DNA of 64,000 nt from Sulfuritalea sp. GTDB taxonomy: Bacteria; Pseudomonadota; Gammaproteobacteria; Burkholderiales; Rhodocyclaceae. The translations under genes were made by a program, and so were the position numbers. This document shows positions 6,633 to 64,000 of the stretch, piece after piece (position 1 is the stretch's first letter; each line of letters starts with the position of its first letter). The notes beneath the pieces are model-generated. The model saw only the letters and a program-made list of their open reading frames with translations, was not told the origin of the DNA and made no database searches. The stretch spans positions 1 through 64,000 of the forward strand of contig NZ_JAFLDR010000015.1 of assembly GCF_017302275.1 (NCBI RefSeq), in the 5' to 3' direction.

Positions 6633-7313
6633 CTACATTCCGCCAAGCAACTTGCCCAGGTGGGCAATACCGGCCAGCGAACTGCCGCGCGCAATCGTCA
6701 CCAACGGAATGCCGGCTACATGGCGCGCCAGGCTTTCCACGGTGGCGGCTAGCGCAACGGGTGAATCCGGGGTTTCATTGACCGCAATCGCCGTGACGCC
6801 AGCGCCGACTTTTGCAAGGGCTTCCAGCGCTGTCAGGGTGTGGCTCAGGCTGCCCAGGTAGGAGCCGGTCACCAGCACGCAGGGCAGGCCGCTGGCGACG
6901 ATCCAGTCGCGTACCGTGTGGCGCTCGCCCAGGGGAACCATGACGCCGCCCACGCCTTCGATCAGGACCGGATCGGAGCCGGGGCCGGGGCCGGTGCTGC
7001 GCCGGGTGAAGGCGACCAGTTCGTCGAAGTCGATGCGCCTGCCTTCCAGTGCCGCCGCCATGTCCGGCGACAGCGGCGCGGCGAAGCGCCAGGGCGCGAT
7101 CGCATCGAGTTCGGTAGCGCTCACTTCGCGGCCCAGCGCCGCCAGCAAAGCGCCGGCATCGCCGGCCTGGGGGCAGGCCGGATCGAAGCCGGAGAGCACC
7201 GGCTTGAAGGCCGCAGGCGACAAACCCTGCGCCCGCCAGTGGCGCAGCAGGGCACTGGCCAGCCAGGTCTTGCCGATGTCGGTGCCGGTGCCGGTGATAA
7301 AATTCGCGCCCAT
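6633..7313 (-). CDS. bioD: Dethiobiotin synthetase
   Basis: ATP-dependent carboxylation of 7,8-diaminopelargonate to dethiobiotin, the penultimate step of biotin synthesis. The N-terminus FITGTGTDIGKTWLA is the BioD P-loop. The segment LIEGVGGVMVPLG is the second hallmark, and the product is 226 aa as expected. The ATG at 7313 has GGAGG seven bases upstream, which decides the start over an upstream-extended reading. Codons ~168-175 (KVGAGVTA) coincide exactly with a copy of the 24-bp interspersed motif. The gene diverges from bioA with a 47-bp gap, a compact shared promoter region. Confidence 0.95.
   Translation of the reverse strand: MGANFITGTGTDIGKTWLASALLRHWRAQGLSPAAFKPVLSGFDPACPQAGDAGALLAALGREVSATELDAIAPWRFAAPLSPDMAAALEGRRIDFDELVAFTRRSTGPGPGSDPVLIEGVGGVMVPLGERHTVRDWIVASGLPCVLVTGSYLGSLSHTLTALEALAKVGAGVTAIAVNETPDSPVALAATVESLARHVAGIPLVTIARGSSLAGIAHLGKLLGGM
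6789..6812 (+). repeat. 24-bp interspersed motif inside bioD
   Basis: A perfect copy of the motif: CGCCGT, GAC, GCCAGCGCCGACTTT. Read from the bioD coding strand it encodes KVGAGVTA, in the region that links two core beta-strands of the enzyme. Confidence 0.8.
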
Positions 7314-7360
7314 CGTTCCTCCGCCGGCGCATTCTAGCCGGCGCCGCCACCGCGCTCGAC

Positions 7361-8632
7361 ATGTCCGACTGGCTGACTCCGGGGCTGGCCCATTTGTGGC
7401 TGCCCTACACGCAGATGAAGACCGCGCCGGCGCCGCTGCCGGTGGTCGCCAGCGATGGCGTGCGGCTGCGACTGGCCGACGGCCGTGAACTGGTCGATGG
7501 CATTTCATCGTGGTGGACCGCCTGCCACGGCTACGGCCACCCGCATATCCGCGCGGCCGTCGCAGGCCAGCTTGCCACGCTGCCGCACGTGATGTTCGCC
7601 GGACTGGCGCATGAGCCCGCGGCGCGGTTGGCGACACGGCTGGCGGCCCTGCTGCCGGGAGACCTGGAGCGCGTCTTTTTCACCGAGTCCGGCTCGGTGG
7701 CGGTCGAGGTTGCGCTCAAGATGGCGCTCCAGTACTGGCGCAACAAGGGCCGCGCGGACAGGCAGCGCATCGTGTATTTCCGCCACGGCTACCACGGCGA
7801 CACCTTCGCCACCATGGCGCTGTGCGATCCCGAGGAGGGCATGCACACGCTGTTCGCCGGCAGCATGCCGGACCAGCTCATGGCCGAGTTGCCGACCGAC
7901 GACACGATGCGCCGCGCCCTCGACCTGCTGCTCGATACCCATGCCGAACGCATTGCCGCCGTGGTCGTCGAGCCGCTGGTGCAGGGCGCCGGCGGCATGC
8001 GGATGCACGATGCGGCGACCCTGGCCTTCATCGCCGAGGCCTGCCGCGGCCACGGGGTGCTGCTGATCGCCGACGAGATCATGACCGGTTTCGGCCGCAC
8101 GGGACGCATGTTCGCCTGCGAAGAGGCCGGGGTCGTGCCCGACATCGTCTGCCTGTCGAAGGCGCTGACCGGCGGCACGCTGCCGCTGGCGGCGACCGTG
8201 GCGCGCGGGCACGTGTTCGACGCCTTTCTGTCCGACGATCCCGGTGCCGCGCTGATGCACGGCCCGACCTACATGGCCAATGCGCTCGCCTGCGCCGCCG
8301 CGAATGCCTCGCTCGACCTCTTCGCCAGCGAGCCACGCCTGGCGCAGGTGGTCGCGATCGAGGCGCAACTGGCGACCGAGCTTTCGCCCTGCCGCGAAAT
8401 CGACGGCGTCGCCGACGTTCGCATCAAGGGCGCGATCGGCGCCGTGGAGCTTCGTGGAGGGATCGACCTCGACGGCATGCGCCGGCGCTTCGCCGAACTC
8501 GGCGTCTGGGTGCGGCCTTTCGGCAAGGTGGTGTACCTGATGCCGCCCTTCGTCATCGCAGCCGACGACCTGTCCGTGCTGACCAGCGCGCTGCGCCAGG
8601 TGCTGGCGGAACGCGCCACGACGCTGAAGTGA
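7361..8632 (+). CDS. bioA: Adenosylmethionine-8-amino-7-oxononanoate aminotransferase
   Basis: PLP enzyme that transfers the amino group of S-adenosylmethionine to KAPA to make 7,8-diaminopelargonate. At 423 aa it is full length. Landmarks: DGISSWWTACHGYGHP near residue 50, FFTESGSVAVEVALKMALQYW, and LIADEIMTGFGRTGRMFACE with the cofactor aspartate. The PLP lysine is in CLSKALTGGTLPLAAT. The last bases overlap the bioF start (GTGA), so the two are translationally coupled. Confidence 0.97.
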   Translation: MSDWLTPGLAHLWLPYTQMKTAPAPLPVVASDGVRLRLADGRELVDGISSWWTACHGYGHPHIRAAVAGQLATLPHVMFAGLAHEPAARLATRLAALLPGDLERVFFTESGSVAVEVALKMALQYWRNKGRADRQRIVYFRHGYHGDTFATMALCDPEEGMHTLFAGSMPDQLMAELPTDDTMRRALDLLLDTHAERIAAVVVEPLVQGAGGMRMHDAATLAFIAEACRGHGVLLIADEIMTGFGRTGRMFACEEAGVVPDIVCLSKALTGGTLPLAATVARGHVFDAFLSDDPGAALMHGPTYMANALACAAANASLDLFASEPRLAQVVAIEAQLATELSPCREIDGVADVRIKGAIGAVELRGGIDLDGMRRRFAELGVWVRPFGKVVYLMPPFVIAADDLSVLTSALRQVLAERATTLK

Positions 8633-9828
8633 AAGGCTCGCTCGACGCCTTGCTGCAGCAGGAGCTGGCCGCGCTCGACGCCGGTGCGCGGCGGCGCCGC
8701 CTGCGCGCCCTCGTCTGCGACGAGGGACGCCTGCGCGATGCGCAGGGCCGGGCGCTGATCGACGTCTCGTCCAACGACTACCTGGACCTCTCGCAGCATC
8801 CCCTGATCAAGCAGCGCGCCGCCGAGTGGGCGCTGCGCCACGGTGCCGGCGCGCCGGCCTCGCGCCTGGTGGCCGGCACGCGCGACATCACGCTGGCGGT
8901 GGAACAAAAGCTCGCGGCCTTCAAGGGCCGCGAGGCGGCGCTGCTGTTTTCCAGCGGCTTCCAGGCCAATGCCACGGTGATTCCGGCGTTGGCGCGGCTT
9001 GGCACAAGAGTTCCCAGAGGGACGCAGAGCGCTGGCGCCGGTGATACGGCAAATGCGACAACGATTTTCAGCGACGAACTCAACCACGCCAGCATCATCC
9101 ACGGCGCACGTGCCGCGCGCTGTCCCGTCAAGGTCTTCCGCCACAACGACATCGGCCACCTCGACGCCCTTCTGGGCCGGCATGACGGGCGCAAATTGAT
9201 CGTCACGGAATCGGTGTTCAGCATGGACGGCGACCGCGCCGACCTGCCCGCGCTGGCCGCCCTGGCCGAACGCCAAGGGGCGCTGCTCCATGTCGACGAG
9301 GCGCACGCCACGGGCATCCTCGGCCCGCAGGGGCGAGGGCTGGCTGCCGGGGTCGCCGGCGTCGATGTCGTGATGGGCACGCTGGGCAAGGCCTTCGGCG
9401 CCTTCGGTGCCTATGTCGCCGGATCGCGCGCGCTGATCGACTGGCTGGTCAATTGCTGCAGCGGCTTCATCTTCACCACGGCGCTGCCGCCGCCCGTGCT
9501 CGGCGCGGTCGATGCCGCGCTGGACCTGGTACCGGGGATGGATGCGGAACGCGCGCGCGTGGCCGCCCATGCGCAGCGCCTGCGCGAGGGGCTCGCCGCG
9601 CTCGGTATCTCGACGCTGGAGTCGACCACGCAGATAGTGCCGGCGGTGATCGGCGCCGAGGCCGACACCCTGGCCGCCGCCGCACGCCTCGATGCCGCAG
9701 GCTTCCTCGCCGTCGCGATCCGCCCGCCGACCGTTGCCCCCGGCAGCAGCCGCTTGCGGCTGGCGATCAACAGCACGCTCACCACCCCGGATATCGACCG
9801 CCTGCTGGCTGCTTTGTCAGACCTTTGA
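8629..9828 (+). CDS. bioF: 8-amino-7-oxononanoate synthase with internal insertion
   Basis: Condenses pimeloyl-ACP/CoA with L-alanine to give KAPA, the first step of the biotin ring pathway. The GTG start overlaps the bioA stop by four bases. PLP-synthase landmarks are SSNDYLDLSQHP, HGAGAPASRLVAGT, FSMDGDRADLPAL, HVDEAHATGILG and the cofactor lysine in GTLGKAFGAFGAY. Compared with my recollection of E. coli BioF, about 18-20 extra residues (~125-144) sit between VIPALAR and IFSDELNHAS. They coincide with a decayed copy of the interspersed motif and keep the frame open. The enzyme is 399 aa and otherwise intact. bioB and bioC are not in the window. Confidence 0.94.
   Translation: MKGSLDALLQQELAALDAGARRRRLRALVCDEGRLRDAQGRALIDVSSNDYLDLSQHPLIKQRAAEWALRHGAGAPASRLVAGTRDITLAVEQKLAAFKGREAALLFSSGFQANATVIPALARLGTRVPRGTQSAGAGDTANATTIFSDELNHASIIHGARAARCPVKVFRHNDIGHLDALLGRHDGRKLIVTESVFSMDGDRADLPALAALAERQGALLHVDEAHATGILGPQGRGLAAGVAGVDVVMGTLGKAFGAFGAYVAGSRALIDWLVNCCSGFIFTTALPPPVLGAVDAALDLVPGMDAERARVAAHAQRLREGLAALGISTLESTTQIVPAVIGAEADTLAAAARLDAAGFLAVAIRPPTVAPGSSRLRLAINSTLTTPDIDRLLAALSDL
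9004..9056 (-). repeat. Diverged interspersed motif inserted in bioF
   Basis: Reading leftward it begins GCCGTATCACCGGCGCCAGCG and continues with a TCCCTCTGGGA hairpin. That resembles the long form of the motif at 12102-12149. Read in the bioF frame it encodes SAGAGDTA, similar to the VGAGxTA peptide that other copies encode. Confidence 0.5.
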
Positions 9829-12101: not shown

Positions 12102-12398
12102 CGCCGTATCGCCAGCGACCAAAGGAAGTCCCTGTGGGGCACCGACTTTTCATGTTCCGTCCCCGGATCAAGTCCGGGGCTGGCTATTCCCGCGATCCGC
12201 TTCGTCATTGCCGCGAAGGCGGGAATCCAGGAAGTAATGTTGAGTCGCCGGGACTCGCCCCGGCGCGGGGCAACAAGCCTGGATTCCGGCTTTGCCACCC
12301 CGCGAAGCGGAATCCAAGGCATGCGGAGCCGCCGGAATAGCCAGCCCCGGACTTGATCCGGGGACGAAGCCCCGAAAGTCGGCGCTGGCAACACGGTG
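12102..12398. repeat. Composite repeat bracketed by inverted copies of the 24-bp motif
   Basis: The left end is a long form of the motif (12102-12149): CGCCGTATCGCCAGCG, then AGGAAGTCCC-TGTGGGGC, then ACCGACTTT. The right end (12375-12398) is the short form in inverted orientation. Inside lie nested inverted repeats: CCCCGGATCAAGTCCGGGG followed by CTGGCTATTCC at the left, mirrored near 12340-12365, plus GCGGGAATCCAGG/CCTGGATTCCGGC. It fills most of the 460-bp gap between the toxin gene and metG. The order of parts resembles a miniature inverted-repeat element; no open frame is preserved inside. Confidence 0.7.
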
Positions 12399-12556: not shown

Positions 12557-14686
12557 ATGACCCGCAAGATTCTCGTTACCAGCGCCCTGCCCTATGCCAA
12601 TGGCGCTATCCACCTCGGCCATCTGGTCGAGTACATCCAGACCGACATCTGGACCCGTTTCCAGAAGCTGCGCGGCCACGAGTGCTGGTACGTCTGCGCC
12701 GACGACACCCACGGCACGCCGATCATGCTGCGCGCCGAGAAGGAGGGCATCTCGCCCGAGGCGCTGATCGCCCGCGTCCATGCCGAGCACTCGCGCGATT
12801 TCGCCGGCTTCCACGTCGCCTTCGACAACTACCACACCACCCATTCCGACGAGACGCGCCACTATTCCGAAGACATCTACGGCAAGCTCAAGGCCGCCGG
12901 CCTGATCGAGGTGCGCGCTATCGAGCAGTTCTACGATCCGGTCAAGGCCATGTTCCTGCCCGACCGCTTCATCAAGGGCGAGTGCCCCAAGTGCGGGGCC
13001 AGGGACCAGTACGGCGACGCCTGCGAATCCTGCGGCGCGGCCTATGCGCCGACCGAGCTGAAGAATCCCTATTCGGCGGTGTCCGGCGCCAAGCCGGAAC
13101 TGCGCTCCTCGGATCACTACTTCTTCAAGCTTTCCGATCCGCGCTGCCAGGAATTCCTGCGCCGCGCCACGCGCGCCGTTTGCGAGAACCAGCCCGAGGC
13201 GATCAACAAGCTGCAGGAATGGCTGGGCGAGCCGGGCGAGAACAGGCTGACCGACTGGGACATCTCGCGCGACGCGCCCTATTTCGGCTTCGAGATTCCC
13301 GATGCGCCGGGGAAGTTTTTCTATGTCTGGCTCGACGCGCCGATCGGCTACATGGGTTCGTTCAAGAACCTGTGCAAGAAAAAGGGCCTCGACTTCGACG
13401 CCTTCTGGGGCAAGGGCTCGACGGCCGAGCTCTACCACTTCATCGGCAAGGACATCCTCTACTTCCACGCCCTGTTCTGGCCGGCCGAACTGGAGCACGC
13501 CGGCTACCGGATACCGACCAGCGTCTTCGCCCATGGCTTCCTGACGGTCGATGGCGCCAAGATGTCGAAGTCGCGCGGCACCTTCATCACCGCCGAGAGC
13601 TACCTCACCCAGGGGCTGAATCCGGAATGGCTGCGCTACTACTTCGCCGCCAAGCTCAATGGCACGATGGAAGACATCGACCTCAACCTCGACGACTTCG
13701 TCAGCCGGGTGAATTCCGACCTCGTCGGCAAGTACATCAACATCGCCAGCCGCGCCGCCGGCTTCATCGCCAAGCGCTTTGCCGGCAAGCTCGACGCGCG
13801 CCACCTCAATGAGATTTTCCGCGCCGAGCTGCCCGGCCTGATCGAGGCCGGCGAGGAAATCGCCGCCCACTACGAGGCGCGCGACTATGCCCGGGCGCTG
13901 CGCCGCGTGATGGCGCTGGCCGACCAGATCAACCAGTACGTCGACCGCCACCAGCCCTGGCAACTGGCCAAGCAGGACGGGCAGGACGCGAAGCTGCACG
14001 AGGTCTGCTCGCTGCTGATCAATGCCTTCCGCATCCTGACCATCTACCTCAAGCCGGTGCTGCCCAAGCTCGCCCATCGCGCCGAGGAATTTCTCAATGT
14101 CGCGCCGCTGCATTGGGCCGACGCCGCCCACCTGCTGCCGCCGGCCCACTTGATCAATTCCTATGAGCACCTGATGCAGCGCATCGACCCGAAGCAGGTT
14201 GAGGCCCTCGTGGCGGCCAACCGCGAATCGCTGGCGCCCGCCGTGTCGTCAGCGCCGACTCCTGCGTCCGCCCAGCCGTCGCCGCAACGCAAGGCCCAGC
14301 ACCAGCAGGCCACCGAGGACAAGACCCAGGGTCAGGTCGAGCCGAAACCACAGCACATCTCGATCGACGATTTCGCCAAGGTCGACTTGCGCGTGGCGCG
14401 CATCGCCGAGGCCCGGCACGTCGAGGGCGCCGACAAGCTGATCCAGCTCACGCTCGATCTCGGCACCGAGACGCGCAATGTCTTCGCCGGCATCAAGTCG
14501 GCCTACGATCCGGCGCAACTGGTGGGCCGTCTGACGGTAATGGTGGCCAACCTGGCGCCGCGCAAGATGAAGTTCGGCATGTCGGAAGGCATGGTGCTGG
14601 CCGCGTCGGATGCCGACGGCAAGTCGCCCGGCATCTACCTGCTGTCGCCCGACAGCGGCGCGCAACCCGGGATGCGGGTGAAGTGA
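12557..14686 (+). CDS. metG: Methionyl-tRNA synthetase
   Basis: Charges tRNA-Met. The 709-aa protein is the long bacterial type. It has a class I catalytic core with the HIGH-like AIHLGHL near residue 20, a zinc knuckle [18 protein letters not shown], and KMSKSRG. The helical anticodon domain follows, and a C-terminal tRNA-binding EMAP/TRBD domain (about residues 600-709, starting [16 protein letters not shown]). A Pro/Ala/Gln-rich linker (~555-590) joins the last two and carries a motif copy. The ATG at 12557 begins the conserved [16 protein letters not shown]; the frame is open further upstream but encodes repeat sequence. Confidence 0.98.
14239..14262 (+). repeat. 24-bp interspersed motif in the metG linker
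   Basis: CGCCGT, GTC, then GTCAGCGCCGACTCC: three mismatches to the consensus. It encodes AVSSAPTP at the start of the disordered linker before the tRNA-binding domain. Confidence 0.6.
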
Positions 14687-14979: not shown

Positions 14980-15027
14980 TGCCGTGTCGCCGGCAACCGC
15001 AGGAAGTCCCCGTGGGGCGCCGACTTT
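14980..15027 (+). repeat. Long form of the interspersed motif upstream of the CHASE2 gene
   Basis: GCCGT, GTC, GCCGGC, then an internal AGGAAGTCCC-CGTGGGGC hairpin, then GCCGACTTT. It matches the long form at 12102-12149, including the internal hairpin. It ends 21 bp before the CHASE2 gene start, so it sits in that gene's leader. Confidence 0.75.
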
Positions 15028-15048: not shown

Positions 15049-16824
15049 ATGTTCCGCGTCCCCCGCGATATCCTGATCGGCTTCCTGCTGGTATGCGCCG
15101 TCGGCTGGAGCCTGATGGAAACGCGCGCCCTGCGCTTCGCCGACCGCGCGCTCTACGACGCGCAGATCGGCTGGCTGCGCGCCCGCTCGCCGACGCCGCT
15201 GGCGCAGGATGTGGTCGTCATCGGCGTCGACGAGGCGGCCTACCTTGCCATTGCCGAACCCACGGCGCTCTGGCACACCCATCTGGGCATCCTGTTCGCC
15301 GGCCTCTCCGCCGCCGAACCGGCGGTGGTCGGCCTGGCGATCCCCCTGCCGGTGCGCTCCTACGATTTCCTGGTGAAGGACATCGATGCCATGCTGATCT
15401 CCGGCATCCACCGACTGAAGAGCACCGCGCCGCTCGTGGTCGGACAACCGCCCGGCATCGGCGGCCGCCTGCGGCCGATCTCTCCGGAACTGCTGGCGGC
15501 GATCGGCGAGAAGGACCTCGCCTCGCTGGCGATCTGCGAAGACATGGATGGCGTGGTCCGGCGCATCAACCAGCGCCGCTGCCAGTCGGCGGACCAGCGC
15601 GACCCGCTGGCGCTGGCGATGGCCAAGCGCCTGGGGCGCCAGGGCTCGCCCAGCGGCATGATCGACTACAGCGTAGGCGGCAGCATCGAGTACACGCCCT
15701 TGCTCACCGTGCTGGGCTGGATCCACCGCGGCGAAACCGAACCGCTGCGCGCGCTGGTCAAGGGCCGCGCCGTGGTGGTGGCCAGCCTGCTGCCGACCGA
15801 AACCCGCCATCGCCTGCCGGTCGCCCTTGCCGGCTGGGATCCGGGCAGCCGCACCGAACCGGGCGCGGTGGTGCATATCCAGGCCTTGCGCACGCTCCTG
15901 GCGCGCGGCCTGATCGAGCGCGCTCCCGAAAACCTGTCGCTGCTGCTGGCCGGCCTCGGTGCCCTGTTCTGGTTCGGTCGCGCCGGCTGGATCAAGGGCC
16001 TGGCCCTGATCACGGCGCTGGCGGCGCTGCTCGTCCTGTCCACCCACGCCCTGTGGCAGGGCGACTACCTGCGCGTGGCGAACATCGTCATGGTCGCGTT
16101 GCTGGCCTACGGCGCGCGCCTGGCCTGGGACTTCATCCGCCGTTTCCGCGAACGGCAGTTGCTGCGCAGCATGTTCGCCGGGCACGTCAGTCCGCAGGTC
16201 ATGCGCGCCCTGCTTGGCGGCGAACTCCAGGTCGAAGAGAATGGCCGGAGCCAGCAGGTCACGGTGCTTGCCGTCGGCATTCGCGGTTTCGCGGCACGTG
16301 CCTCGCGATCGACCCCGCAAGCAATGATCGCGCTGCTCAACCGCTTTCACGCGGCGGCCGGACTGGCCATCCAGACCAGCGGCGGCGCGGTGGACAAATA
16401 CGTCGGCGATGGCCTGACGGCGACCTTCGGCCTGCCGCAGCCGCTGGACGCGCCGCAGCGCAACGCGCTGGAGGCGGCGCGCGACCTGTTGCTGCGCATC
16501 GAGCGCCTGAACAAGGAATTGGTCGAGGAAGGCATCGATCCACTGTACATCGGCATCGGCATCCACAGCGGCGAGGTTCTCGCCGGCTACGTCGGCTCGG
16601 CCCAGCGGCGCGAGTTCTCAGTGATCGGCGAATCGGTCGGCATAGCCGGCCGGCTGCAGGCGATGACCAAGGACCTCGGCCATCCGGTGCTATGCACGCA
16701 AGCAGTGGCGGCGGCCGTCGGCCATGGCGGCGGCCTGGTCGACCTGGGTGCGGTGGGTACCGACGGATTGGATGTCTGGGGCTGGACACCGCCGGTGCTG
16801 ACACCCAGGGAGGGCGGGGCGTGA
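15049..16824 (+). CDS. CHASE2 sensor with degenerate class III adenylate cyclase domain
   Basis: 591 aa: an N-terminal membrane helix, a periplasmic CHASE2 domain (about 30-290; VVVIGVDEAAY and RAVVVASLLPT are typical), two to three membrane helices (~295-360) and a C-terminal class III cyclase homology domain (~400-580). Key catalytic positions are altered. The first metal aspartate is Gly410 (AVGIRGF), and the transition-state asparagine is Gly531 (IGESVGIAGR). Lys450, Asp454 and Arg535 remain. The domain may therefore bind nucleotide or act by dimerisation rather than make cAMP. The last codons overlap the mlaE-like start (GTGA), tying this sensor to the lipid-transport genes. Confidence 0.88.
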   Translation: MFRVPRDILIGFLLVCAVGWSLMETRALRFADRALYDAQIGWLRARSPTPLAQDVVVIGVDEAAYLAIAEPTALWHTHLGILFAGLSAAEPAVVGLAIPLPVRSYDFLVKDIDAMLISGIHRLKSTAPLVVGQPPGIGGRLRPISPELLAAIGEKDLASLAICEDMDGVVRRINQRRCQSADQRDPLALAMAKRLGRQGSPSGMIDYSVGGSIEYTPLLTVLGWIHRGETEPLRALVKGRAVVVASLLPTETRHRLPVALAGWDPGSRTEPGAVVHIQALRTLLARGLIERAPENLSLLLAGLGALFWFGRAGWIKGLALITALAALLVLSTHALWQGDYLRVANIVMVALLAYGARLAWDFIRRFRERQLLRSMFAGHVSPQVMRALLGGELQVEENGRSQQVTVLAVGIRGFAARASRSTPQAMIALLNRFHAAAGLAIQTSGGAVDKYVGDGLTATFGLPQPLDAPQRNALEAARDLLLRIERLNKELVEEGIDPLYIGIGIHSGEVLAGYVGSAQRREFSVIGESVGIAGRLQAMTKDLGHPVLCTQAVAAAVGHGGGLVDLGAVGTDGLDVWGWTPPVLTPREGGA

Positions 16825-23922: not shown

Positions 23923-24396
23923 TCAGGCGTCGAACAGCGCTTTCATTTCCACCAGGTAAGCCGCCGCGCCGGCCGAATTTTCCGCCGGCGCCCACGACGG
24001 CTTTTCCCCGGCGGCGGGCGGCAGGTAGGGACCGGCCTTGGCTTCGAGGAACACCGTGTCGTCCGCCAGCGCGACGGCCGTGTGCCAGGCACCATGGGGA
24101 ATATCCACCCCGATCGCCGTTCCGCCAACGCCGACTTTTGCGGCCTGCAGCACCTTGCCGTCGTCATCGAAGGTGATAACGCCCAGCGAGCCGCGCAGCA
24201 CGACGAAGGTCTCGTCCTTGTTCGGATCGAGGTGGCGGTGCGGCGGGATGTAGGAATCCTGCTGCATGGCGTTGAGCAGGCGGTGGCCGGGATGGACATC
24301 CGTCGGGTGGAAATTGCGGTTCTTGCGCCGGCGCGGGCTGGCCGCGGCTTCGGCGCAGAGCGCGTCGAGCATCGCGTCGTCGATCAGGGTGATCAC
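23923..24396 (-). CDS. WbuC-family cupin protein
   Basis: 157 aa starting at a GTG that overlaps the dnaE stop by four bases. The fold is a cupin: HRHLDPNKDETFVVLRGSLGVI supplies the metal-binding His/Glu set and IPHGAWHTAVAL the second histidine cluster. The opening RRRKNRNFHPTDVHPGHRLLNAM matches WbuC-like proteins found near lipopolysaccharide genes, though none are adjacent. Residues 87-94 (KVGVGGTA) are encoded by a motif copy. Confidence 0.85.
   Translation of the reverse strand: MITLIDDAMLDALCAEAAASPRRRKNRNFHPTDVHPGHRLLNAMQQDSYIPPHRHLDPNKDETFVVLRGSLGVITFDDDGKVLQAAKVGVGGTAIGVDIPHGAWHTAVALADDTVFLEAKAGPYLPPAAGEKPSWAPAENSAGAAAYLVEMKALFDA
24115..24138 (+). repeat. 24-bp interspersed motif inside the cupin gene
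   Basis: CGCCGT, TCC, GCCAACGCCGACTTT: one mismatch in the fixed positions. It encodes KVGVGGTA between two cupin strands. Confidence 0.75.
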
Positions 24397-28560: not shown

Positions 28561-29535
28561 CTAGGGAAGGAGTACGGTCGAACCCGTGGTCTTGCGCGCC
28601 ACGAGGTCGATCTGCGCCTGGGCGGCGTCCTTCAGCGCGTAGGTCTGGTTGACTTCGATTTTCACCTTGCCGCTGGTGACGACGTCGAACAACTCGCCGG
28701 AAATCGCCAGCAGGTCGCTGCGCTGCGCGATGTAGGTGAACAGGGTCGGCCGGGTGATGAACAGAGAGCCCATCTTGGCCAGCAGGCCGAGGTCGAAGGG
28801 CGGCACCGGGCCGGAGGCGGCGCCGAACAGCGCCATCATGCCCATCGGCCGCAGGCATTCCAGTGAGCCCATGAAGGTGTCCTTGCCAATCGAGTCGTAC
28901 ACCACGCGCACGCCCTTGCCCCCGGTGATCTCCTTGACCCGCTCGGCGAAGTTCTCGCGCGTGTAGATGATGGTGTGGTCGCAACCGTGGGCCTTCGCCA
29001 GCGCGGCCTTCTCGTCGGAGCTGACGGTACCGATCACCGTGGCGCCGAGCGCGCGCGCCCATTGGCAGACGATGAGGCCGACGCCGCCGGCGGCGGCATG
29101 GATGAGTATGGTGTCGCCGGCTTCGACCTTGCAGGTGCGGCGCAGCAGGTATTGCGCGGTCATGCCTTGCAGCATCATCGCCGCGCCGGTCTTGAAGTCA
29201 ATCACGTCGGGCAGTTTGACTAGGCGGTCGGCCGGAATGTTGCGCACTTCCGCATAGGCGCCGACCGGGCCGCCGGCATAGGCGACGCGGTCACCGACCC
29301 TGAGATCGCTCACGCCGCTGCCCACTGCCTCGACCACTCCGGCCGCTTCGAGGCCGATGCCGGACGGCATGGGTAGCGGGTAGGCGCCGGTGCGATGGTA
29401 GATGTCGATGTAGTTGAGGCCGACGGCGTGGTGGCGCACCCGCGCTTCGTTGGGCGCCGTGTCGCCAACGCCGACTTCTTCCCAGCGCAGGACTTCGGGA
29501 CCGCCGGGGGCATGGAATCGGATGGCGTGGCTCAT
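28561..29535 (-). CDS. NADPH:quinone reductase, zinc-independent MDR family
   Basis: 324 aa; reduces quinones with NADPH. It has the QOR fold: GLNYIDIYHRTGAYP near residue 50 and the nucleotide-binding LIHAAAGGVGLIVCQWARALGA (~145-165). No zinc-ligand cysteines are at the structural-zinc site. The start follows AAGGAGA. Residues 20-27 (EVGVGDTA) are encoded by a motif copy. Confidence 0.93.
   Translation of the reverse strand: MSHAIRFHAPGGPEVLRWEEVGVGDTAPNEARVRHHAVGLNYIDIYHRTGAYPLPMPSGIGLEAAGVVEAVGSGVSDLRVGDRVAYAGGPVGAYAEVRNIPADRLVKLPDVIDFKTGAAMMLQGMTAQYLLRRTCKVEAGDTILIHAAAGGVGLIVCQWARALGATVIGTVSSDEKAALAKAHGCDHTIIYTRENFAERVKEITGGKGVRVVYDSIGKDTFMGSLECLRPMGMMALFGAASGPVPPFDLGLLAKMGSLFITRPTLFTYIAQRSDLLAISGELFDVVTSGKVKIEVNQTYALKDAAQAQIDLVARKTTGSTVLLP
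29455..29478 (+). repeat. 24-bp interspersed motif inside the quinone reductase gene
   Basis: CGCCGT, GTC, GCCAACGCCGACTTC: two mismatches in the fixed positions. It lies near the N-terminus and encodes EVGVGDTA in the coding strand. Confidence 0.7.
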
Positions 29536-30941: not shown

Positions 30942-31019
30942 CCTGGACGCCAAGAGTTATGCCCCCGGCAGAGCCGGTGGCGGTATCCCCTGCGGACGGC
31001 GCTGACGGGACGGCGGGAT

Positions 31020-37015: not shown

Positions 37016-37039
37016 AAAGTCGGCGCTGGCGCTACGGCG
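37016..37039 (-). repeat. 24-bp interspersed motif supplying a stop codon
   Basis: Inverted copy: AAAGTCGGCGCTGGC, GCT, ACGGCG. The CGCCGTAGC of its opposite strand provides the TAG stop of the metallo-beta-lactamase-fold gene at 37032, so insertion has set the end of that protein. Confidence 0.75.
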
Positions 37040-37961
37040 CCATGGTCGGCAATATCCAGCCGTCCTTGAGTTCGACGGAGCGCGAACGCAGCAATTCTCC
37101 GAGCAGCCATGAGGCGAAATCGTCGTCGGAGAAACCCAGCATGCGCTGGTTGACGTTGTGGAAGAAGGGCACGCTGGCGAGGTAGGCGGCGAGTTCGTCC
37201 TCGCGCAGGCGTTGCAGGTCGAGCAGGTTGAAGGTGAAACAGGCGCGCACGGCATTGCGGCCGACGCGGGTGGAGTCGGCCTCGAAGGATTCGAGCCGGC
37301 GCAAGGCGCGCGCCATGGCGCCGTCGAAGTCGTCGAAGGGCGCGCCGTGGCCGGGGATGACGATGTCCACATCCAGCCGGCCGATCATTTCCAGCGTGCT
37401 GCGCGTCGCCGGCAGGGCGTCCTTCCTGCCCATCACCTCGCCGAAGATGATGCCGAAGCCATCCTGCCAGAGGGCGTCGCCGGAAATCAGGAGGCGCTTT
37501 TCGGCACAGTAGTAGATCAGTGCCTCCATGTCGTGGCCGGGGGCCGCCAGTGCCTGCCAGGCGAGGCCGCCGATTTCGAATTCGCTGTCGGCCTCGATCA
37601 CCGCGTCATGGGCGAAGCGGTCGCCGCGCTGGCGGGCGGCGTCGAGCATCAGCGCGTCGGTGTCCCATTCGGCGACCATGCGCTCGATGCCGGCGGGGAT
37701 CGCGATCTTGCAGCCGAAGGCTGCCTGCAGCGAGGCGTTGCCGCCGATGTGGTCGGAGTGCGAGTGGGTATTCACCAGCAGGTCGAGCCGGGTCGCCGGG
37801 CGCCGTGCCGCCAGCGCCGACGTTACGAGTTCGACGGTCTGCGGCGCGTGACCGACATAGCCGGCATCGACCAGCGTGGCCGATTCACCGGCGTAGAGCA
37901 GGATGTTGTTCGACGACAGCCAGCCGCGCTCGATGACCTGGATCGAGTCAGGCAGCTTCAT
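37032..37961 (-). CDS. Metallo-beta-lactamase-fold hydrolase
   Basis: 309 aa; dinuclear-metal hydrolase fold. Metal ligands are in NTHSHSDHIGG (~64-74), APGHDMEAL and the C-terminal VIPGHGAPFDD. It is likely a thioesterase or lactonase-type enzyme of acyl-CoA catabolism, as it ends the leucine operon; substrate not shown. The gene overlaps the DUF1289 gene by 14 bp. It carries two motif copies: one at codons ~46-54 and one that provides the stop. Confidence 0.88.
   Translation of the reverse strand: MKLPDSIQVIERGWLSSNNILLYAGESATLVDAGYVGHAPQTVELVTSALAARRPATRLDLLVNTHSHSDHIGGNASLQAAFGCKIAIPAGIERMVAEWDTDALMLDAARQRGDRFAHDAVIEADSEFEIGGLAWQALAAPGHDMEALIYYCAEKRLLISGDALWQDGFGIIFGEVMGRKDALPATRSTLEMIGRLDVDIVIPGHGAPFDDFDGAMARALRRLESFEADSTRVGRNAVRACFTFNLLDLQRLREDELAAYLASVPFFHNVNQRMLGFSDDDFASWLLGELLRSRSVELKDGWILPTMAP
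37801..37824 (+). repeat. 24-bp interspersed motif inside the hydrolase gene
   Basis: CGCCGT, GCC, GCCAGCGCCGACGTT: one mismatch. It encodes TSALAARR in a frame different from the VGAGxTA copies. The position lies in a helix between the first strands. Confidence 0.6.
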
Positions 37962-44554: not shown

Positions 44555-45201
44555 GACTGCTCCTTGCGCCCCCAGCCTTCCATCGGATGGCCGGGCATCA
44601 GTTGGTAGGGATGCCGCCAGCCCGGCAGCGCCGCGATGCGCGCCGCCCAGTCGCGCAGGTTCGGGTAGTCGTTCCAATCCACGCCGATTTCCTCGGGCCA
44701 GAACACATATCCGGCCAATGAAAAGTCGGCGATGGTGGTACGGCGGCCGACAACCCATTCGCGCCCGGCGAGGTGCGCGTCGAGTACTTTCCATGCAGTT
44801 TCGGCGCGGGCGCGGAACATGGCGATGATCCCGGGGTCGGTGGCCGGTCCGAAATTGCGCAGGTAGCGCAGCGTCGCCGCGTAGCTGGTGAACTTGTGGT
44901 TGTCGAACAGGGTCCAGCGCAGGATCTCGCGCCTTTCTTCGTTGTCCTGCGGGCCGAACCTGCCAAGTGTTTCGGCAAGGTAGTCGAGGATCACGCCCGA
45001 CTGCGACAGGATGCGGCCGCGGTGTTCCAGCAGCGGCACTTCGCCCATCACGTTCAGCGCGCGGTACTCGGGCGTCTTGGTCGCGCCATGGAAGAAGTCC
45101 ACGAAACGCGGCTCCCAGTCGGCGCTCGACACGGCCAGCATCAGCGCCGCCTTGTAGGCGTTGCCGGACTGGGCGAAGCAATGCAGGGTGTATTCGGCCA
45201 T
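44551..45201 (-). CDS. Glutathione S-transferase
   Basis: 216 aa with a thioredoxin-like N-domain (HCFAQSGNAYKAAL, GEVPLLEHRGRILSQSGVILDYLA) and the helical C-domain. It shares a stop/start overlap with the kappa-like isomerase gene. The acceptor is unknown. Confidence 0.9.
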   Translation of the reverse strand: MAEYTLHCFAQSGNAYKAALMLAVSSADWEPRFVDFFHGATKTPEYRALNVMGEVPLLEHRGRILSQSGVILDYLAETLGRFGPQDNEERREILRWTLFDNHKFTSYAATLRYLRNFGPATDPGIIAMFRARAETAWKVLDAHLAGREWVVGRRTTIADFSLAGYVFWPEEIGVDWNDYPNLRDWAARIAALPGWRHPYQLMPGHPMEGWGRKEQS

Positions 45202-49095: not shown

Positions 49096-50265
49096 TCAAT
49101 TCAAGGTTGAAAGCGCAACGGTATAGCGGCCGGGAAGCTGGTCGGCGGCGTTGACGGTGATGTCGAGATCGCGCATCAGGCCATCCTTGAGGCCGTAGAT
49201 CCAGCCGTGGATGGTCAGGGGCTGGCCGCGCTGCCAGGCATCCTGTACGACATAGGTCTGGCAGACGTTGGCGACCTGTTCCAGCACATTGAGTTCGCAC
49301 AGCCTGTCGTGCCTTGCCTCCGGCGGCAGCCTGTCGATTTCGGCCAGATGCTTGGCGCGCACGTCGCGCACGTGGCGCAGCCAGATGTCGACCAGGCCGA
49401 CGCGCGCACCGTCGAGTGCAGCCTTGACGCCGCCGCAACCGTAGTGGCCGACCACCATGATGTGCTTGACCTTGAGCACGTCGACGGCGAACTGGATCAC
49501 CGACAGGCAGTTGAGGTCGGTATGCACCACGACGTTGGCGACATTGCGATGGACGAAAACCTCGCCCGGCAGCAGGCCGACGATTTCGTTGGCCGGTACC
49601 CGCGAATCCGAGCAGCCGATCCACAGCAGTTCGGGCGTCTGCAGGTGGGAGAGCTTCTCGAAATAGCCCGGATCGACCTCGCGCATCTTGTTCGACCAGG
49701 CGCGATTGAAGTCGAACAGGTGGTGCAGGCTGCGATTATTGATCTCGTCCTCGGACCAGTTTTCGAGATCAAGGGCGAGGAACTGCGTACCCTCGACCGG
49801 CGTCTGGTAATAGGCCGGGGCCTCGTCGAAGCCCAGTTCGCGGTACAGCTTGACGGCGATGCGCATCGCCGGCAGCGTGTCGAGCATGATCCTGCGGTAG
49901 CCGATCTGGCGGGCCGCGCGGATCCCAGCCAGGGCCAGGTCGCGACCGACGCCGAGGCCACGAAAGGCGGGGTCGACATAGAGGCGCTTGAGTTCGCAGA
50001 CGCCTTCCGAATACGGCCGGATGCCGACGCAACCGGCCCCCCTGCCGTCGACCGTGGCGTAGAACAGGCGGCCTTCCGGCGCCGAGTAGCGTCCGGGCAG
50101 GCTGGCCATTTCCTCGTCGAAATTCTGGAAACAGAGATCGACGCCGAGCCAGGCCGCGTAGTTGCGGAAGAACTGGCGCACCTGTTCCAGTTCCGCGGGG
50201 TGCTCGGCGCCGATCACGCGGATCGCCGTCCTGCCAGCGCCGACTTTCGTCCTTGCTTCAGCCAT
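49096..50265 (-). CDS. GNAT acetyltransferase-beta carbonic anhydrase fusion
   Basis: 389 aa with two domains. Residues ~15-165 are a GNAT N-acetyltransferase (ELKRLYVDPAFRGLGVGRDLALAGI is the acetyl-CoA pyrophosphate loop). Residues ~180-389 are a beta carbonic anhydrase: the zinc ligands Cys and Asp-Arg are in WIGCSDSRVPANEI, and His and Cys in VVGHYGCGGVKAAL. The CA part would supply bicarbonate for the biotin carboxylase of the same operon, an attractive functional reason for its location. The N-terminal residues 7-14 (KVGAGRTA) are a motif copy. Confidence 0.92.
   Translation of the reverse strand: MAEARTKVGAGRTAIRVIGAEHPAELEQVRQFFRNYAAWLGVDLCFQNFDEEMASLPGRYSAPEGRLFYATVDGRGAGCVGIRPYSEGVCELKRLYVDPAFRGLGVGRDLALAGIRAARQIGYRRIMLDTLPAMRIAVKLYRELGFDEAPAYYQTPVEGTQFLALDLENWSEDEINNRSLHHLFDFNRAWSNKMREVDPGYFEKLSHLQTPELLWIGCSDSRVPANEIVGLLPGEVFVHRNVANVVVHTDLNCLSVIQFAVDVLKVKHIMVVGHYGCGGVKAALDGARVGLVDIWLRHVRDVRAKHLAEIDRLPPEARHDRLCELNVLEQVANVCQTYVVQDAWQRGQPLTIHGWIYGLKDGLMRDLDITVNAADQLPGRYTVALSTLN
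50224..50247 (+). repeat. 24-bp interspersed motif at the N-terminus of the GNAT-CA gene
   Basis: CGCCGT, CCT, GCCAGCGCCGACTTT: perfect fixed positions. It encodes KVGAGRTA just after the start codon, before the conserved domain begins. Confidence 0.8.
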
Positions 50266-53509: not shown

Positions 53510-54529
53510 TTGAACGCCCCCATCGCCTATCCCCACGAAACCTCGCCGGCTCCGGGCGTGGCGGTTACGCTCGTACCCGGCGTGGAATGGCTGTGCATGC
53601 CGCTGCCTTTCGCGCTGAACCATATCAACCTTTGGCTGCTGGCCGACGGTGACGGCTACGCGGCGGTCGATACCGGTTTTGCCCAGGATCCGATCAAGGA
53701 CGCATGGAAGTCGGCGCTGACGGAACGGCTTTTGACACGCGTCATCGTCACCCACTGCCATCCCGACCACCTGGGCCTGGCGGCCTGGCTGGAGCAGGAA
53801 ACCGGCGCCGGGCTGTGGATCGCCCAGGGCGAATACCTCGCGGCGCACATGATGGTGGAGCAGGTGGCCGGCTACCGCATCAGTGCCATGGTCGAATTCT
53901 TTCGCCGGCACGGGCTCGATGCGGCACGCATGGACGGCCTGGTCCAGCGCGGCAACGGCTACAAGCGCGGCGTGCCGGAGATACCCGCCACCTACCGGCG
54001 CCTGTTCCCCGACCAGCGCCTGCGCATCGGCGAGCACGAATGGCGCACCATCGTCGGCCATGGCCACGCGCCGGAACATATGAGCCTGTATTGCGCCGAA
54101 CTCGGCGTGCTGATTTCCGGCGACATGCTGTTGCCGCGCATTTCGACCAATATTTCGGTGATGGCCAGCACGCCGCTGGCGGACCCGCTGGGACTGTTCC
54201 TCGCCTCGATCGACGAATACCTCGCCCTGCCCGTCGACACGCTGGTGCTGCCTTCGCACGGTCGCCCCTTCCGCGGCCTCCACGCCCGCGTCGAGCAACT
54301 GCATGCGCACCACGCGCAACGCTGCGCCTTGCTGCTGGACGCCTGCCGCGGCACGCCCAAGTCGGCGGCCGACCTGATTCCGGTACTGTTCGACCGCGAA
54401 ATCCCGGACCCGCACCAGACCATGTTTGCCATGGGCGAATCCATCGCCCACCTGAACTACCTGGAACACGCAGGAAAATTGCAGCGCATCGAAGAAACCG
54501 GTTTGATCCGTTTCGTCAGCCAACCCTAG
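53510..54529 (+). CDS. Metallo-beta-lactamase-fold hydrolase
   Basis: 339 aa from a TTG start; the ATG at 53493 hits a stop after six codons, so it cannot be used. Metal ligands: VTHCHPDHLGLAAW, VGHGHAPEHM and LVLPSHGRPF. It precedes phaC by 8 bp and may act on acyl-CoA or hydroxyacyl esters. Codons ~66-74 overlap a weak inverted copy of the interspersed motif (53707-53730). Confidence 0.88.
   Translation: MNAPIAYPHETSPAPGVAVTLVPGVEWLCMPLPFALNHINLWLLADGDGYAAVDTGFAQDPIKDAWKSALTERLLTRVIVTHCHPDHLGLAAWLEQETGAGLWIAQGEYLAAHMMVEQVAGYRISAMVEFFRRHGLDAARMDGLVQRGNGYKRGVPEIPATYRRLFPDQRLRIGEHEWRTIVGHGHAPEHMSLYCAELGVLISGDMLLPRISTNISVMASTPLADPLGLFLASIDEYLALPVDTLVLPSHGRPFRGLHARVEQLHAHHAQRCALLLDACRGTPKSAADLIPVLFDREIPDPHQTMFAMGESIAHLNYLEHAGKLQRIEETGLIRFVSQP
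53707..53730 (-). repeat. Weak copy of the 24-bp motif
   Basis: GAAGTCGGCGCTGAC, GGA, ACGGCT: three mismatches to the inverted consensus. It encodes KSALTERL. Chance similarity is possible. Confidence 0.4.
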
Positions 54530-58317: not shown

Positions 58318-59253
58318 ATGAAACCCGCGACAATTCCCGCACGGCGCGGCACGCTGATGAGTGGCCTGGTGGCGCTTCTGCTGGCGAGTTGCGCGACCAT
58401 CGTCCCTGGCACGCTGCGCGATACCGACCATCCGCTGGCCGGCAGGCTATGGGACACCTCCGTGCAAGGCTTCATCGACGACGCCGAACTGCTGCGTCGC
58501 GCCGCTGGCGCCGACGCCGTGCTGTTGGGCGAGATCCACGACAACCCGGAACACCATCGTTTGCAGGCCAGGCTGCTGCAGGCCCGCATCGATGCCGGCG
58601 CCCGCCCGGCGCTGCTGATGGAGCAGTTCGACATCGACCAGCAATCCGCGCTGGAGGAAGCGCGTCGCAGCAGCCGCGACCTGGCACCGCTGATGCACGG
58701 CTGGGAGTGGCCGCAGTACCAGCCGCTGGTGGCGCTGGCCGCTACCGCGGGACTGACCCTGCAGGCGGCCAACCTGCCGTGGGCGTCCGCCCGACCGGTG
58801 GTACGCGAGGGCTTTGCATCCATGGCCGCCGGCGAACTGCGACGACTCGCGCTCGAAACCACCTGGAACGATGATAGGCAAAGCTACATGACCGAAGTGA
58901 TCGGGGCCTCGCATTGCGGCATGGTCACCCCGCAACTGCGCGACGGACTGGTGCGCGCACAGCGCTTGCGCGATGCGACGCTGGCCGATGCGGCACTGGA
59001 CAGAATCGACCAGGGCGTGGTCTTCATCCTCGGTCGCGGCCATGCGCGACGGGATGTCGGTGTGCCGCTCTACCTGGCGGCGCGCCGCCCCGGCACGCGC
59101 GTGCTCTCGATCGGCTTCGTGGAAGTCGGCGCTGGCAAGACGGCGCCGGCACAGTACGAGACCGAGCGCGTCGGCAACATCGCGCCCTACGACATCATCT
59201 GGTTCACTCCGCGCGCGGAACGCGCCGATCCCTGCCTGGCGTTTCGCAAGTAA
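58318..59253 (+). CDS. ChaN-family lipoprotein
   Basis: 311 aa with a lipobox LLLASC (Cys24) after the signal peptide. The ChaN/haem-binding uptake fold is indicated by AVLLGEIHDNPEHHRLQARLL and ALLMEQFDIDQQSAL. ChaN-like proteins bind haem. Codons ~269-276 (EVGAGKTA) are an inverted motif copy near the C-terminus. It stands alone, convergent with amtB. Confidence 0.88.
   Translation: MKPATIPARRGTLMSGLVALLLASCATIVPGTLRDTDHPLAGRLWDTSVQGFIDDAELLRRAAGADAVLLGEIHDNPEHHRLQARLLQARIDAGARPALLMEQFDIDQQSALEEARRSSRDLAPLMHGWEWPQYQPLVALAATAGLTLQAANLPWASARPVVREGFASMAAGELRRLALETTWNDDRQSYMTEVIGASHCGMVTPQLRDGLVRAQRLRDATLADAALDRIDQGVVFILGRGHARRDVGVPLYLAARRPGTRVLSIGFVEVGAGKTAPAQYETERVGNIAPYDIIWFTPRAERADPCLAFRK
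59122..59145 (-). repeat. 24-bp interspersed motif inside the ChaN-like gene
   Basis: GAAGTCGGCGCTGGC, AAG, ACGGCG: one mismatch to the inverted consensus. It encodes EVGAGKTA close to the C-terminus. Confidence 0.7.
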
Positions 59254-61281: not shown

Positions 61282-61290
61282 TCAAACCTG

Positions 61291-62492: not shown

Positions 62493-62744
62493 ATGCTGAA
62501 TCCAAAACTGCTCGACGAAATGTCCACCCGCGTCTCCTCGCTGCTGGCCGCGACCCCTGCCGGCGAGGTGGAAAAAAACCTGCGCGCGGCCTTGGCCGGA
62601 CTGTTCGCCAAGCTCGATCTGGTGACCCGCGAGGAATTCGACGTGCAGCGCGAAGTGCTGGCGCGCACCCGGGCCAAGCTCGATGCGCTGGAAGCCCGGG
62701 TCGCCGAACTGGAAGCACGCCGACAGCCCGCTGTCCCAAGCTAG
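62493..62744 (+). CDS. ubiK: UbiK-like ubiquinone biosynthesis accessory factor (BMFP)
   Basis: 83 aa: LNPKLLDEMSTRVSSLLAAT, then a coiled-coil tail (REEFDVQREVLARTRAKLDALEARVAELEA). Proteins of this type (formerly BMFP/YqiC) assist UbiJ and the Ubi complex in aerobic ubiquinone synthesis. A TTG at 62469 is an alternative start; the ATG at 62493 begins the conserved part. Gene order ubiK-comM is common in betaproteobacteria. Confidence 0.9.
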   Translation: MLNPKLLDEMSTRVSSLLAATPAGEVEKNLRAALAGLFAKLDLVTREEFDVQREVLARTRAKLDALEARVAELEARRQPAVPS

Positions 62745-62751
62745 GATTTCG

Positions 62752-64000
62752 ATGTCGCTCGCAGTCCTCCGCTCGCGAGCGTTGGCGGGCCTCGCGGCCC
62801 CGGAAGTCACGGTCGAAGTCCATCTCGCCGCTGGGCTACCGTCATTTACCCTGGTCGGACTGCCCGATACCGAAGTCAAGGAGGCGCGTGACCGTGTGCG
62901 CGCCGCGATCCAGAACTGCGGCTTCGAGTTTCCGCAACGCCGCATCACCGTGAACCTCGCCCCGGCCGATTTGCCCAAGGAATCCGGCCGCTTCGACCTG
63001 CCGATCGCACTGGGCATCCTGGTCGCCTCGGGGCAGGTCAAGGCGGCGAACCTGGACGAACACGAATTCGCCGGCGAACTGGCGCTGTCGGGCGACCTGC
63101 GCGCGGTGCGCGGCACGCTGGCCATGTGCGCTGCGATCCATTGCCAGGCCGGCAGCGGCGGCGCGCGCGCCTTCGTCCTGCCGCTGGAAAGTGCGCCGGA
63201 AGCGGCCCTGATCGAGGGCATGAACATCCTGCCGGCGCGCACCCTGCTGCAGGTCTGCGCCCACCTCGTCGGCCGTGAGATCCTGGCTCCGTTCGCCGTA
63301 TCGCCAGCGCCGACTCTTGCATGGTATCCGGATCTCGCCGAGGTCAAGGGCCAGGCGCAGGCCAAGCGCGCGCTGGAAGTCGCCGCTGCCGGCGGCCACA
63401 GCCTGCTCATGAGCGGGCCGCCCGGCGCCGGCAAGTCGATGCTGGCACAACGCCTGCCCGGCCTGATGCCGCCGATGACCGACGCCGAAGCGCTGGAGTC
63501 CGCCGCAGTGCATTCGCTGGCTGGAAGCTTCACGCTCGCGCAGTGGAAGCAGCGTCCGTTTCGCGCGCCGCACCATTCCGCATCGAGTGCCGCCTTGGTC
63601 GGGGGCGGTGGTACGCCGCGACCGGGCGAGATCTCGCTGGCACATCACGGCACGCTGTTCCTCGACGAATTGCCGGAGTTCCAGCGCGGCGTGCTCGAAG
63701 CCCTGCGCGAACCGCTGGAAAGCGGACTGATCCACATCGCCCGCGCCGCGCGCCGCGCTGAATTCCCCGCGCGCTTCCAACTCGTCGCGGCGATGAACCC
63801 CTGCCCCTGTGGCTGGCTCGGACATGCCTCCGGCAAATGCCGCTGCACCCCGGACCAGGTTGCACGCTATCGCGGCAAGCTGTCGGGACCCTTGCTCGAT
63901 CGCATCGACCTGATGCTCGACGTGCCTGCAGTGGCCGAAGCCGACCTCGCCGCGCGCGGCGACGGTGAATCCTCGGCCATCGTGCGCGCTCGCGTGGGTG
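62752..64000 (+). CDS. comM: YifB/ComM-family Mg-chelatase-like ATPase (partial)
   Basis: 416 codons are visible and the frame is open to the right edge. The N-terminal Lon-like domain begins LAVLRSRALAGLAAPEVTVE; the AAA+ core has Walker A MSGPPGAGKSMLA, Walker B GTLFLDELPEF and the arginine-rich CPCGWLGHASGKCRCT zinc-like segment. ComM is a branch-migration helicase for natural transformation recombination. Codons ~181-189 (AVSPAPTLA) in the linker between the two domains are a motif copy. Confidence 0.93.
   Translation, partial: MSLAVLRSRALAGLAAPEVTVEVHLAAGLPSFTLVGLPDTEVKEARDRVRAAIQNCGFEFPQRRITVNLAPADLPKESGRFDLPIALGILVASGQVKAANLDEHEFAGELALSGDLRAVRGTLAMCAAIHCQAGSGGARAFVLPLESAPEAALIEGMNILPARTLLQVCAHLVGREILAPFAVSPAPTLAWYPDLAEVKGQAQAKRALEVAAAGGHSLLMSGPPGAGKSMLAQRLPGLMPPMTDAEALESAAVHSLAGSFTLAQWKQRPFRAPHHSASSAALVGGGGTPRPGEISLAHHGTLFLDELPEFQRGVLEALREPLESGLIHIARAARRAEFPARFQLVAAMNPCPCGWLGHASGKCRCTPDQVARYRGKLSGPLLDRIDLMLDVPAVAEADLAARGDGESSAIVRARVG
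63294..63317 (+). repeat. 24-bp interspersed motif in the comM linker
   Basis: CGCCGT, ATC, GCCAGCGCCGACTCT: one mismatch. It falls exactly in the linker between the Lon-like and AAA+ domains and encodes AVSPAPTL. Confidence 0.7.

Follow-up and report, generated by a model that had tools for sequence, protein, structure and literature searches.

A dispersed 24- to 25-bp motif of Sulfuritalea and related bacteria is probably a DNA uptake sequence

What brings the same 24-bp word into a bacterial sequence again and again, most often inside genes? The question is raised by a stretch of 64,000 nucleotides from a Sulfuritalea sp. (positions 1 to 64,000 of contig NZ_JAFLDR010000015.1, assembly GCF_017302275.1; hereafter the window), in which a sequence-only reading had picked out an interspersed motif beginning with CGCCGT and likened its behaviour to that of Rickettsia palindromic elements. 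The analysis described here points to another answer, namely that the motif is probably a DNA uptake sequence, by which the DNA-uptake machinery recognises DNA of its own kind in natural transformation. As a class assignment by comparison with known systems, this is well supported. It draws on the combination of the motif's boundaries and abundance, the apparent origin of copies by substitution, their retention at orthologous places, their enrichment between genes and the existence of dialects; the concentration in one family, the even spacing and the lack of replication polarity point the same way.

In the window, the 24-letter form of the motif, CGCCGTNNNGCCAGCGCCGACTTT, has 15 matches when up to three mismatches are allowed, against a mean of 0.01 in 100 dinucleotide shuffles, which bears out the earlier impression that it is too frequent for chance. 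The genome-wide count proposed as a check gave 618 copies at up to two mismatches in the 4.41-Mb host genome (88 contigs; 308 on the plus and 310 on the minus strand) and a single match to the reversed pattern used as a control. Words from the motif core also ranked first or near first when words were counted without any pattern, for the window as well as for a 100-kb sample of a second genome, G002. It is thus certain that an interspersed, genome-wide motif is real. Alignment of 139 exact copies with their flanks gave a unit of 25 bp, CGCCGT-N-Y-C-GCCAGCGCCGACTTT-t, in which the third base after CGCCGT is mostly C and the final, 25th base mostly T; the latter is the optional trailing T by which the unit exceeds the 24-letter form. 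Apart from a weak base preference immediately to the left of the motif, the flanks carry no signal. Across 110 inexact copies, positions 16-22 rank with the least variable. No known RNA family reached its gathering score in the window, and, among the matches listed from the open-licence literature, titles and opening parts of abstracts contained no description of the motif for Rhodocyclales, Sterolibacteriaceae or Sulfuritalea, in agreement with the initial suspicion that it was undescribed.

The motif was present in all 31 sampled genomes of the window's genus (27-628 copies). In the same first sample, six genomes from other genera of the family had 0-2 copies and 24 genomes from other families had none, save one with four. 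In a wider sample of 297 genomes from the family, 125 had at least one match, and copies numbered in the hundreds in genera g1, g32, g43, g62, g70 and g88; single genomes nearly or wholly free of the motif were found within g1 and g43 (G017 with 27 copies and G293 with none). At least 115 stretches with exact copies were retrieved in named contigs, mostly from assemblies of Sulfuritalea, Rugosibacter and Rhodocyclaceae/Rhodocyclales, with a minority under other titles, Sulfurisoma among them (see below for the rest). The distribution is concentrated in one family; in the NCBI taxonomy, Sulfuritalea and Rugosibacter belong to the Sterolibacteriaceae, Betaproteobacteria. Word counts in 20-100 kb each of G032, G034, G035, G036, G017 and G076 revealed no comparable dispersed word.

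Within the family, the word itself changes. Over-represented dispersed 11-mers were counted pattern-free in the fetched stretches and served as seeds for weight-matrix refinement, at thresholds that let through about two shuffled sites each, so that some of the listed sites are visibly weak. The refined consensus for G002 was tCGCCGTnYCGCCAGCGCCGACTYt (168 sites in 800 kb). Shifted words were found in G098 (genus g69; ...CCAGCGTCGACTTTT, refined matrix with 34 sites in 100 kb), in G275 (g34; ...GACTGACTTT, refined consensus CGCCGTnYtGcnGggRCTGACTTTc, 37 sites in 113 kb) and in G166 (g90; ...CACGGCTGACTTTC, refined consensus CGgCGTnncGCcgcggCTGACttTc, 32 sites in 79 kb). The clearest dialect beside the window's own is that of G098, where GTCGACTTTT replaces GCCGACTTT in the 100-kb sample (L356-L360). 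All four forms agree in their CGCCGT-like left half-site, in GACTTT and in the distance between the two; the middle varies. Searched as CGSCGT-N12-GACTTT in the 297 family genomes, with 0-7 matches per genome in reversed controls, the half-site pair occurred 206-460 times in nine of eleven g34 genomes (46 and 6 times in the remaining two), 117-328 times in four of six g90 genomes (3 and 4 times in the others), 83 times and once in g47, and 40 times in g69. At least one match was present in 217 of the 297 genomes, mostly at background level. Genomes G072 and G001 contain 208 and 301 copies of the full word at up to two mismatches but only 6 and 28 exact pairs, implying that the last bases of the word differ there. 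In a sample of 399 genomes from the order, the 386 genomes outside the family gave 0-7 half-site pairs (reversed controls up to 18), the sole exception being G395 (family f38), with 15 pairs that are partly dialect-like. This genome has ...GGGACTGACTTT forms resembling the g34 dialect, and its raised count could be due to transfer, contamination or a further dialect.

The placement of copies was followed in G002, a genome in a single contig, sampled as 40 evenly spaced 20-kb stretches (800 kb), with genes called by our own script, which mis-called at least the gene at position 53707 of the window. The sample contains 115 copies at up to two mismatches (64 plus, 51 minus), 74 of them coding, 38 intergenic and three at edges. 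The resulting density is about fourfold higher between genes than within them (441 versus 105 per Mb). Copies are spaced more evenly than expected by chance, neighbours closer than 2 kb making up 0.18 of 77 gaps versus 0.34 under random placement, and the variance-to-mean ratio of copies per stretch (0.90) indicates no regional clustering. Stretches below 60% GC have on average 1.2 copies per 20 kb versus 3.2 above that value; a motif-free, low-GC stretch, L146 (G002 1900001-1920000), is a conjugative-type island with TraU, TraN, McrBC and HipA genes. Two head-to-head pairs, 29-30 bp apart and forming near-perfect hairpins, were found in the 864 kb made up of the window and the 40 stretches; such pairs are rare. 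Any widespread binding site might be conserved, preferentially intergenic, evenly spaced and divided into dialects, and the motif could be conceived as the target of a sequence-specific intracellular DNA-binding protein, either a nucleoid- or chromosome-organising factor or one that reads a recombination signal, with hundreds of sites and a specificity co-varying between genera. The fact that motif-poor genomes mostly keep their competence genes (see below) would also fit. We nonetheless regard this explanation as unlikely. No strand switch accompanies the GC-skew turning points in the 40 stretches, the two halves of the sample having 33 plus and 27 minus, and 31 plus and 24 minus copies; a replication-polar motif was rejected on this ground, and the result speaks against orienting sites of the Chi or KOPS kind, which are likewise over-represented across the chromosome but are much shorter. 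The lack of regional clustering is a further point against such a protein, and we know of no factor of this sort with some 600 long, non-palindromic, mostly intragenic sites.

When coding copies from three sets were pooled (194 copies), all six reading frames were found to be used, very unequally. Antisense frames 0 (VGAGxTA) and 2 (SALAxRR) account for 75 and 29 copies, sense frames 2 (AVxPAPT) and 0 (RRxASADF) for 50 and 31, and the two arginine-rich frames for eight and one. The preference for antisense frame 0 is what might be expected if the constraint acted on protein or codons, for instance on a VGAGxTA peptide repeat. With 119 of the 194 copies in other frames and the density between genes about four times that in coding sequence, the chance that this is the explanation appears negligible.

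The copies and related features identified in the window are as follows.

3378..3401, plus strand: degenerate copy with three mismatches, intergenic.
6789..6812, plus strand: perfect copy in an AAA_26 gene (bioD-like, as inferred from its neighbourhood), antisense frame 0, KVGAGVTA.
8995..9051 (ends approximate), minus strand: copy in bioF, some 33 nt (11 residues) longer than the unsplit motif of the G002 orthologue.
12102..12149, plus strand: copy split by a 24-nt type B insert, GGAAGTCCCTGTGGGG.
12375..12398, minus strand: copy with one mismatch, intergenic; an arm of an inverted repeat overlaps it.
14239..14262, plus strand: copy with three mismatches in the metG linker (SAPTPA), which is longer here than in most orthologues without the motif at that place.
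14980..15027, plus strand: copy split by a 24-nt type B insert.
16399..16422, minus strand: copy with three mismatches in a guanylate-cyclase gene, possibly a chance match.
24115..24138, plus strand: copy with one mismatch in a DUF6016 gene, KVGVGGTA.
29455..29478, plus strand: copy with two mismatches in a zinc-type dehydrogenase gene, EVGVGDTA.
About 30953..31015, minus strand: copy split by a 39-nt, hairpin-like type A insert, just past the stop codon of a malic enzyme/PTA gene.
35161..35184, plus strand: copy with one mismatch, intergenic.
35261: left-half remnant only.
37016..37039, minus strand: perfect copy across the 3' end of a metallo-beta-lactamase-fold gene, with the stop codon within the motif.
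37801..37824, plus strand: copy with one mismatch in the same metallo-beta-lactamase-fold gene, antisense frame 2.
44722..44745, minus strand: copy with two mismatches in a GST-family gene, RRTTIADF.
50224..50247, plus strand: perfect copy in the 5'-terminal part of a GNAT-carbonic anhydrase fusion gene, corresponding to residues 7-14 should the ATG at 50265 be the start codon.
53707..53730, minus strand: copy with three mismatches in a metallo-beta-lactamase-fold gene (plus strand).
59122..59145, minus strand: copy with one mismatch near the C-terminus of a ChaN-like gene, EVGAGKTA.
63294..63317, plus strand: copy with one mismatch in a linker of the YifB/ComM-family gene, AVSPAPT.

All eleven near-consensus copies listed in the sequence-only reading were recovered where it had placed them, with 0-3 mismatches, eight on the plus and three (12375, 37016 and 59122) on the minus strand. 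The forms that it had called longer or weaker proved to be of several kinds: the one at 53707 is a copy with three mismatches, those at 12102 and 14980 are copies split by inserts and that at 9004 is the expanded bioF copy, while the one at 35261 did not hold up beyond its left half. The copies at 3378, 16399 and 44722 and the split copy near 30953 are additions to that list. VGAGxTA- or VGVGxTA-type peptides are encoded, as had been read, at 6789, 24115, 29455 and 59122, and also at 50224 if the ATG at 50265 is the start; entry into genes at termini and linkers was equally apparent. The gene at 49096-50265 combines a GNAT acetyltransferase domain and a carbonic anhydrase domain. Other repeats were noted in the same DNA. 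A large inverted repeat at 12139-12385, with 56-nt arms that are 86% complementary and CCCCGGACTTGATCCGGGG-type hairpins, overlaps the 12375 copy with one arm. A longer dispersed repeat of about 110-190 bp (76-94% identical) forms an inverted pair at 6495-6608 and 9862-10053, flanking the bio gene cluster, and has further copies in G002; the loci noted for it are L139, L145, L165 and L046. A second over-represented dispersed word, approximately AAATCTGCG / CGCAGATTT, occurs in G002 stretches L128, L130 and L137-L139.

The manner in which copies arise was approached by comparing orthologous loci. The queries, copies with up to two mismatches plus 200 nt of flank at either end, came from the window and loci L001-L185, and pairs were kept if less than 95% identical and if the alignment covered 60 nt on each side. 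An aligned counterpart was available for 83 of the 345 queries, for a total of 99 pairs. In the 55 ungapped pairs, identity was 0.909 in the motif versus 0.762 in the flanks, the motif being the better conserved part in 48. Protein alignments (55-95% identity over 100 residues or more, a single one for each query and locus) numbered 79; the counterpart had the motif in 40, part of it in six and lacked it in 33. Among the latter, 17 were ungapped at the site, eight were longer and eight shorter. A clear case is the dehydrogenase encoded at 28561-29535, with EEVGVGDTAPNE in the window, EEVAVADVAPNE in motif-poor G017 and EAVEVGAPGPGE in G032; at the 29455 site, G017 has EVAVADVA, ungapped, versus EVGVGDTA. 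Relatives outside the motif-bearing genera were without the encoded residues in the cases seen, an outcome in favour of the sequence-only reading, which had named such a comparison as a test. G002 has the motif at the place equivalent to 6789, the copy at 37801 aligned with copies in loci L022 and L065, and at 24115 the G017 orthologue is 12 residues longer. Four of ten locus alignments were uninformative, the stretches having been ill chosen (12375 against L161, 24115 against L188, 37016 and 37801 against L065).

These comparisons bear on the likeness to Rickettsia palindromic elements, that is, on the notion of a very small mobile or selfish element that inserts into genes. Those elements resemble the motif in being interspersed words tolerated in coding sequence at linkers and termini. 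In the metG linker, motif-carrying sequences are longer than most motif-less ones, extra residues lie at the motif itself, and the eight shorter orthologues as well as the recurrence of short inserts at a few positions within the motif are in keeping with the same notion. On the other hand, the motif is non-palindromic and much shorter than those elements. Since 17 of 33 motif-lacking counterparts were ungapped and eight longer, most copies do not seem to be born as an inserted block. Copies are moreover graded (23, 52, 40 and 22 with zero, one, two and three mismatches in the 800 kb of G002), and the dialects shift within one architecture. An insertion element was rejected as an account of the motif, for which we see very little likelihood, and was kept for the inserts inside it, where the earlier likeness survives in part. 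Judging from these alignments, copies appear to arise mostly by substitution at tolerant places, with length change in loose linkers.

Short inserts resembling one another interrupt a subset of copies, each at one of a limited number of positions. Type A inserts follow GCGCCG, have the form TCCC..GGGGATACCGC..CATA and measure 24, 27 or 39 nt; type B inserts are 24 nt long around GGAAGTCCC..GTGGGG; type C inserts follow CGCCGT and consist of 36 nt, GCGAAGCGGAATCCCAGG.... The recurrent inserts are hairpin-like and mostly multiples of three (24-39 nt), an exception being a 22-nt type A insert in L130. Besides the four sites in the window (8995-9051, 12102-12149, 14980-15027 and 30953-31015), inserts were found in L132, L154, L158, L135, L141, L083, L106 and L399. 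In several cases, small in number, the orthologous motif is unsplit in one genome and split in another. A relaxed search for split copies gave nine in G002 (three in the reversed control), two in the window (none in the control) and 14 in other loci (three in the control); because the controls yield false splits, only the recurrent insert types are credible.

If the motif is a DNA uptake sequence, as we think probable, a DNA receptor at the cell surface, for which a type IV minor pilin is the likeliest choice, would bind both half-sites and prefer fragments carrying them. Fragments with better copies would be taken up and recombined more often, so that chance near-matches would be drawn towards the consensus over evolution, biased uptake acting as a molecular drive. 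Were the specificity of the receptor to drift, the genome-wide word would follow and dialects would result; were it lost, copies would decay, leaving motif-poor relatives. The ComP_DUS-family pilin is a reasonable first candidate for the receptor, despite two motif-rich genomes without a match (see below). It was found in 30 of 31 genus genomes and in 32 of 34 in a further set, and in G000 it adjoins other minor-pilin-like genes, as judged by eye. ComEC is present in 30 of 31 genus genomes and in 25 of 26 motif-rich and motif-poor genomes. DprA was matched in 27 of 28 genomes tested, 26 of them above the cut-off, and is present in G000 and G002. A tree of MetG, with 29 rows from 30 genomes (G275 had no full match and was left out), joined each of several motif-poor genomes to motif-bearing ones, namely G017 (88/86), G293 (98/96), G205 (100/100), G136 (100/99) and G229 (97/94); G272 is distant and grouped with G036. 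Not all genus labels are monophyletic in this tree. Such nesting in a one-gene tree would fit loss or decay of the motif in single lineages.

A number of observations weigh against an uptake sequence. Gaps fall inside the motif in 44 of the 99 DNA pairs; the counterpart has the motif there in eight of these, nearby in two and in neither place in 34, of which eight belong to outgroup genera and several to genomes with a dialect. Another 20-kb stretch free of the motif, L131, shows no obvious sign of foreign origin. Contigs labelled viral hold copies, at 55 extra per Mb versus 110 in named host loci, a comparison that is confounded. Exact copies occur in records titled Burkholderiaceae, Casimicrobiaceae, Thiobacillus, Propionivibrio and Gammaproteobacteria (one assembly, several matches). 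In the MetG tree, the three motif-bearing groups (of 3, 4 and 17 rows), motif-less G032 and G051, a member of another family, all arise from the same polytomy, so that a single clade of motif-bearing genera does not emerge from it. Tried as a discriminator, the presence of ComEC or of a ComP_DUS pilin failed, both being equally common in motif-less relatives; the competence genes thus permit an uptake explanation without proving it. Among motif-rich genomes, G098 and G327 have no ComP_DUS match and G125, a single contig, no DprA match, while motif-poor G017 retains ComEC, DprA and the pilin. Finally, among the matches listed from the open-licence literature, titles and opening parts of abstracts report no transformability of these bacteria.

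To our knowledge, DNA uptake sequences have been described only in Neisseriaceae and Pasteurellaceae, and the system proposed here would be a third, independently evolved one, unrelated in sequence to both. The DNA uptake sequence (DUS) of Neisseriaceae has hundreds to thousands of dispersed copies with a family-level range, dialects that keep a conserved part, and inverted pairs serving as terminators (PMC3630211, PMC12616744). The motif of the window shares the dispersal and high copy number, the family-level range and dialects with a conserved part; inverted pairs occur too, but rarely. It differs in that DUS is continuous, up to about 13 nt long and has a CTG core, whereas the motif spans 24-25 bp with two outer half-sites and a variable middle, has fewer copies and has a candidate for its receptor. 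The uptake signal sequence (USS) of Pasteurellaceae is a discontinuous motif with hundreds or more copies and an intragenic bias of orientation and position (PMC2346458, PMC12616744). The same traits are seen in the window's motif, which is GC-rich, unlike the USS with its 9-bp core and AT-rich flanks; AAAGT alone is common to the reverse-complemented motif and the start of the extended Hin-USS, and may be so by chance.

A more elaborate picture can be offered only tentatively. The family containing Sulfuritalea may possess a third, independently evolved uptake system, whose word exceeds DUS in length and in sharpness of conservation and is read as two half-sites, the middle between them being free to evolve and to diverge into genus dialects. 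The system would also host tiny, mostly in-frame, hairpin-like parasites at a few fixed positions within the word, which may ride on transformation. Should the motif indeed be an uptake sequence, a third and unrelated instance, from environmental bacteria, would mean that self-specific uptake evolves repeatedly, and natural transformability of these bacteria would be predicted. A family with several dialects and motif-poor members would, in addition, lend itself to finding the receptor by co-variation and to tests of how uptake words spread.

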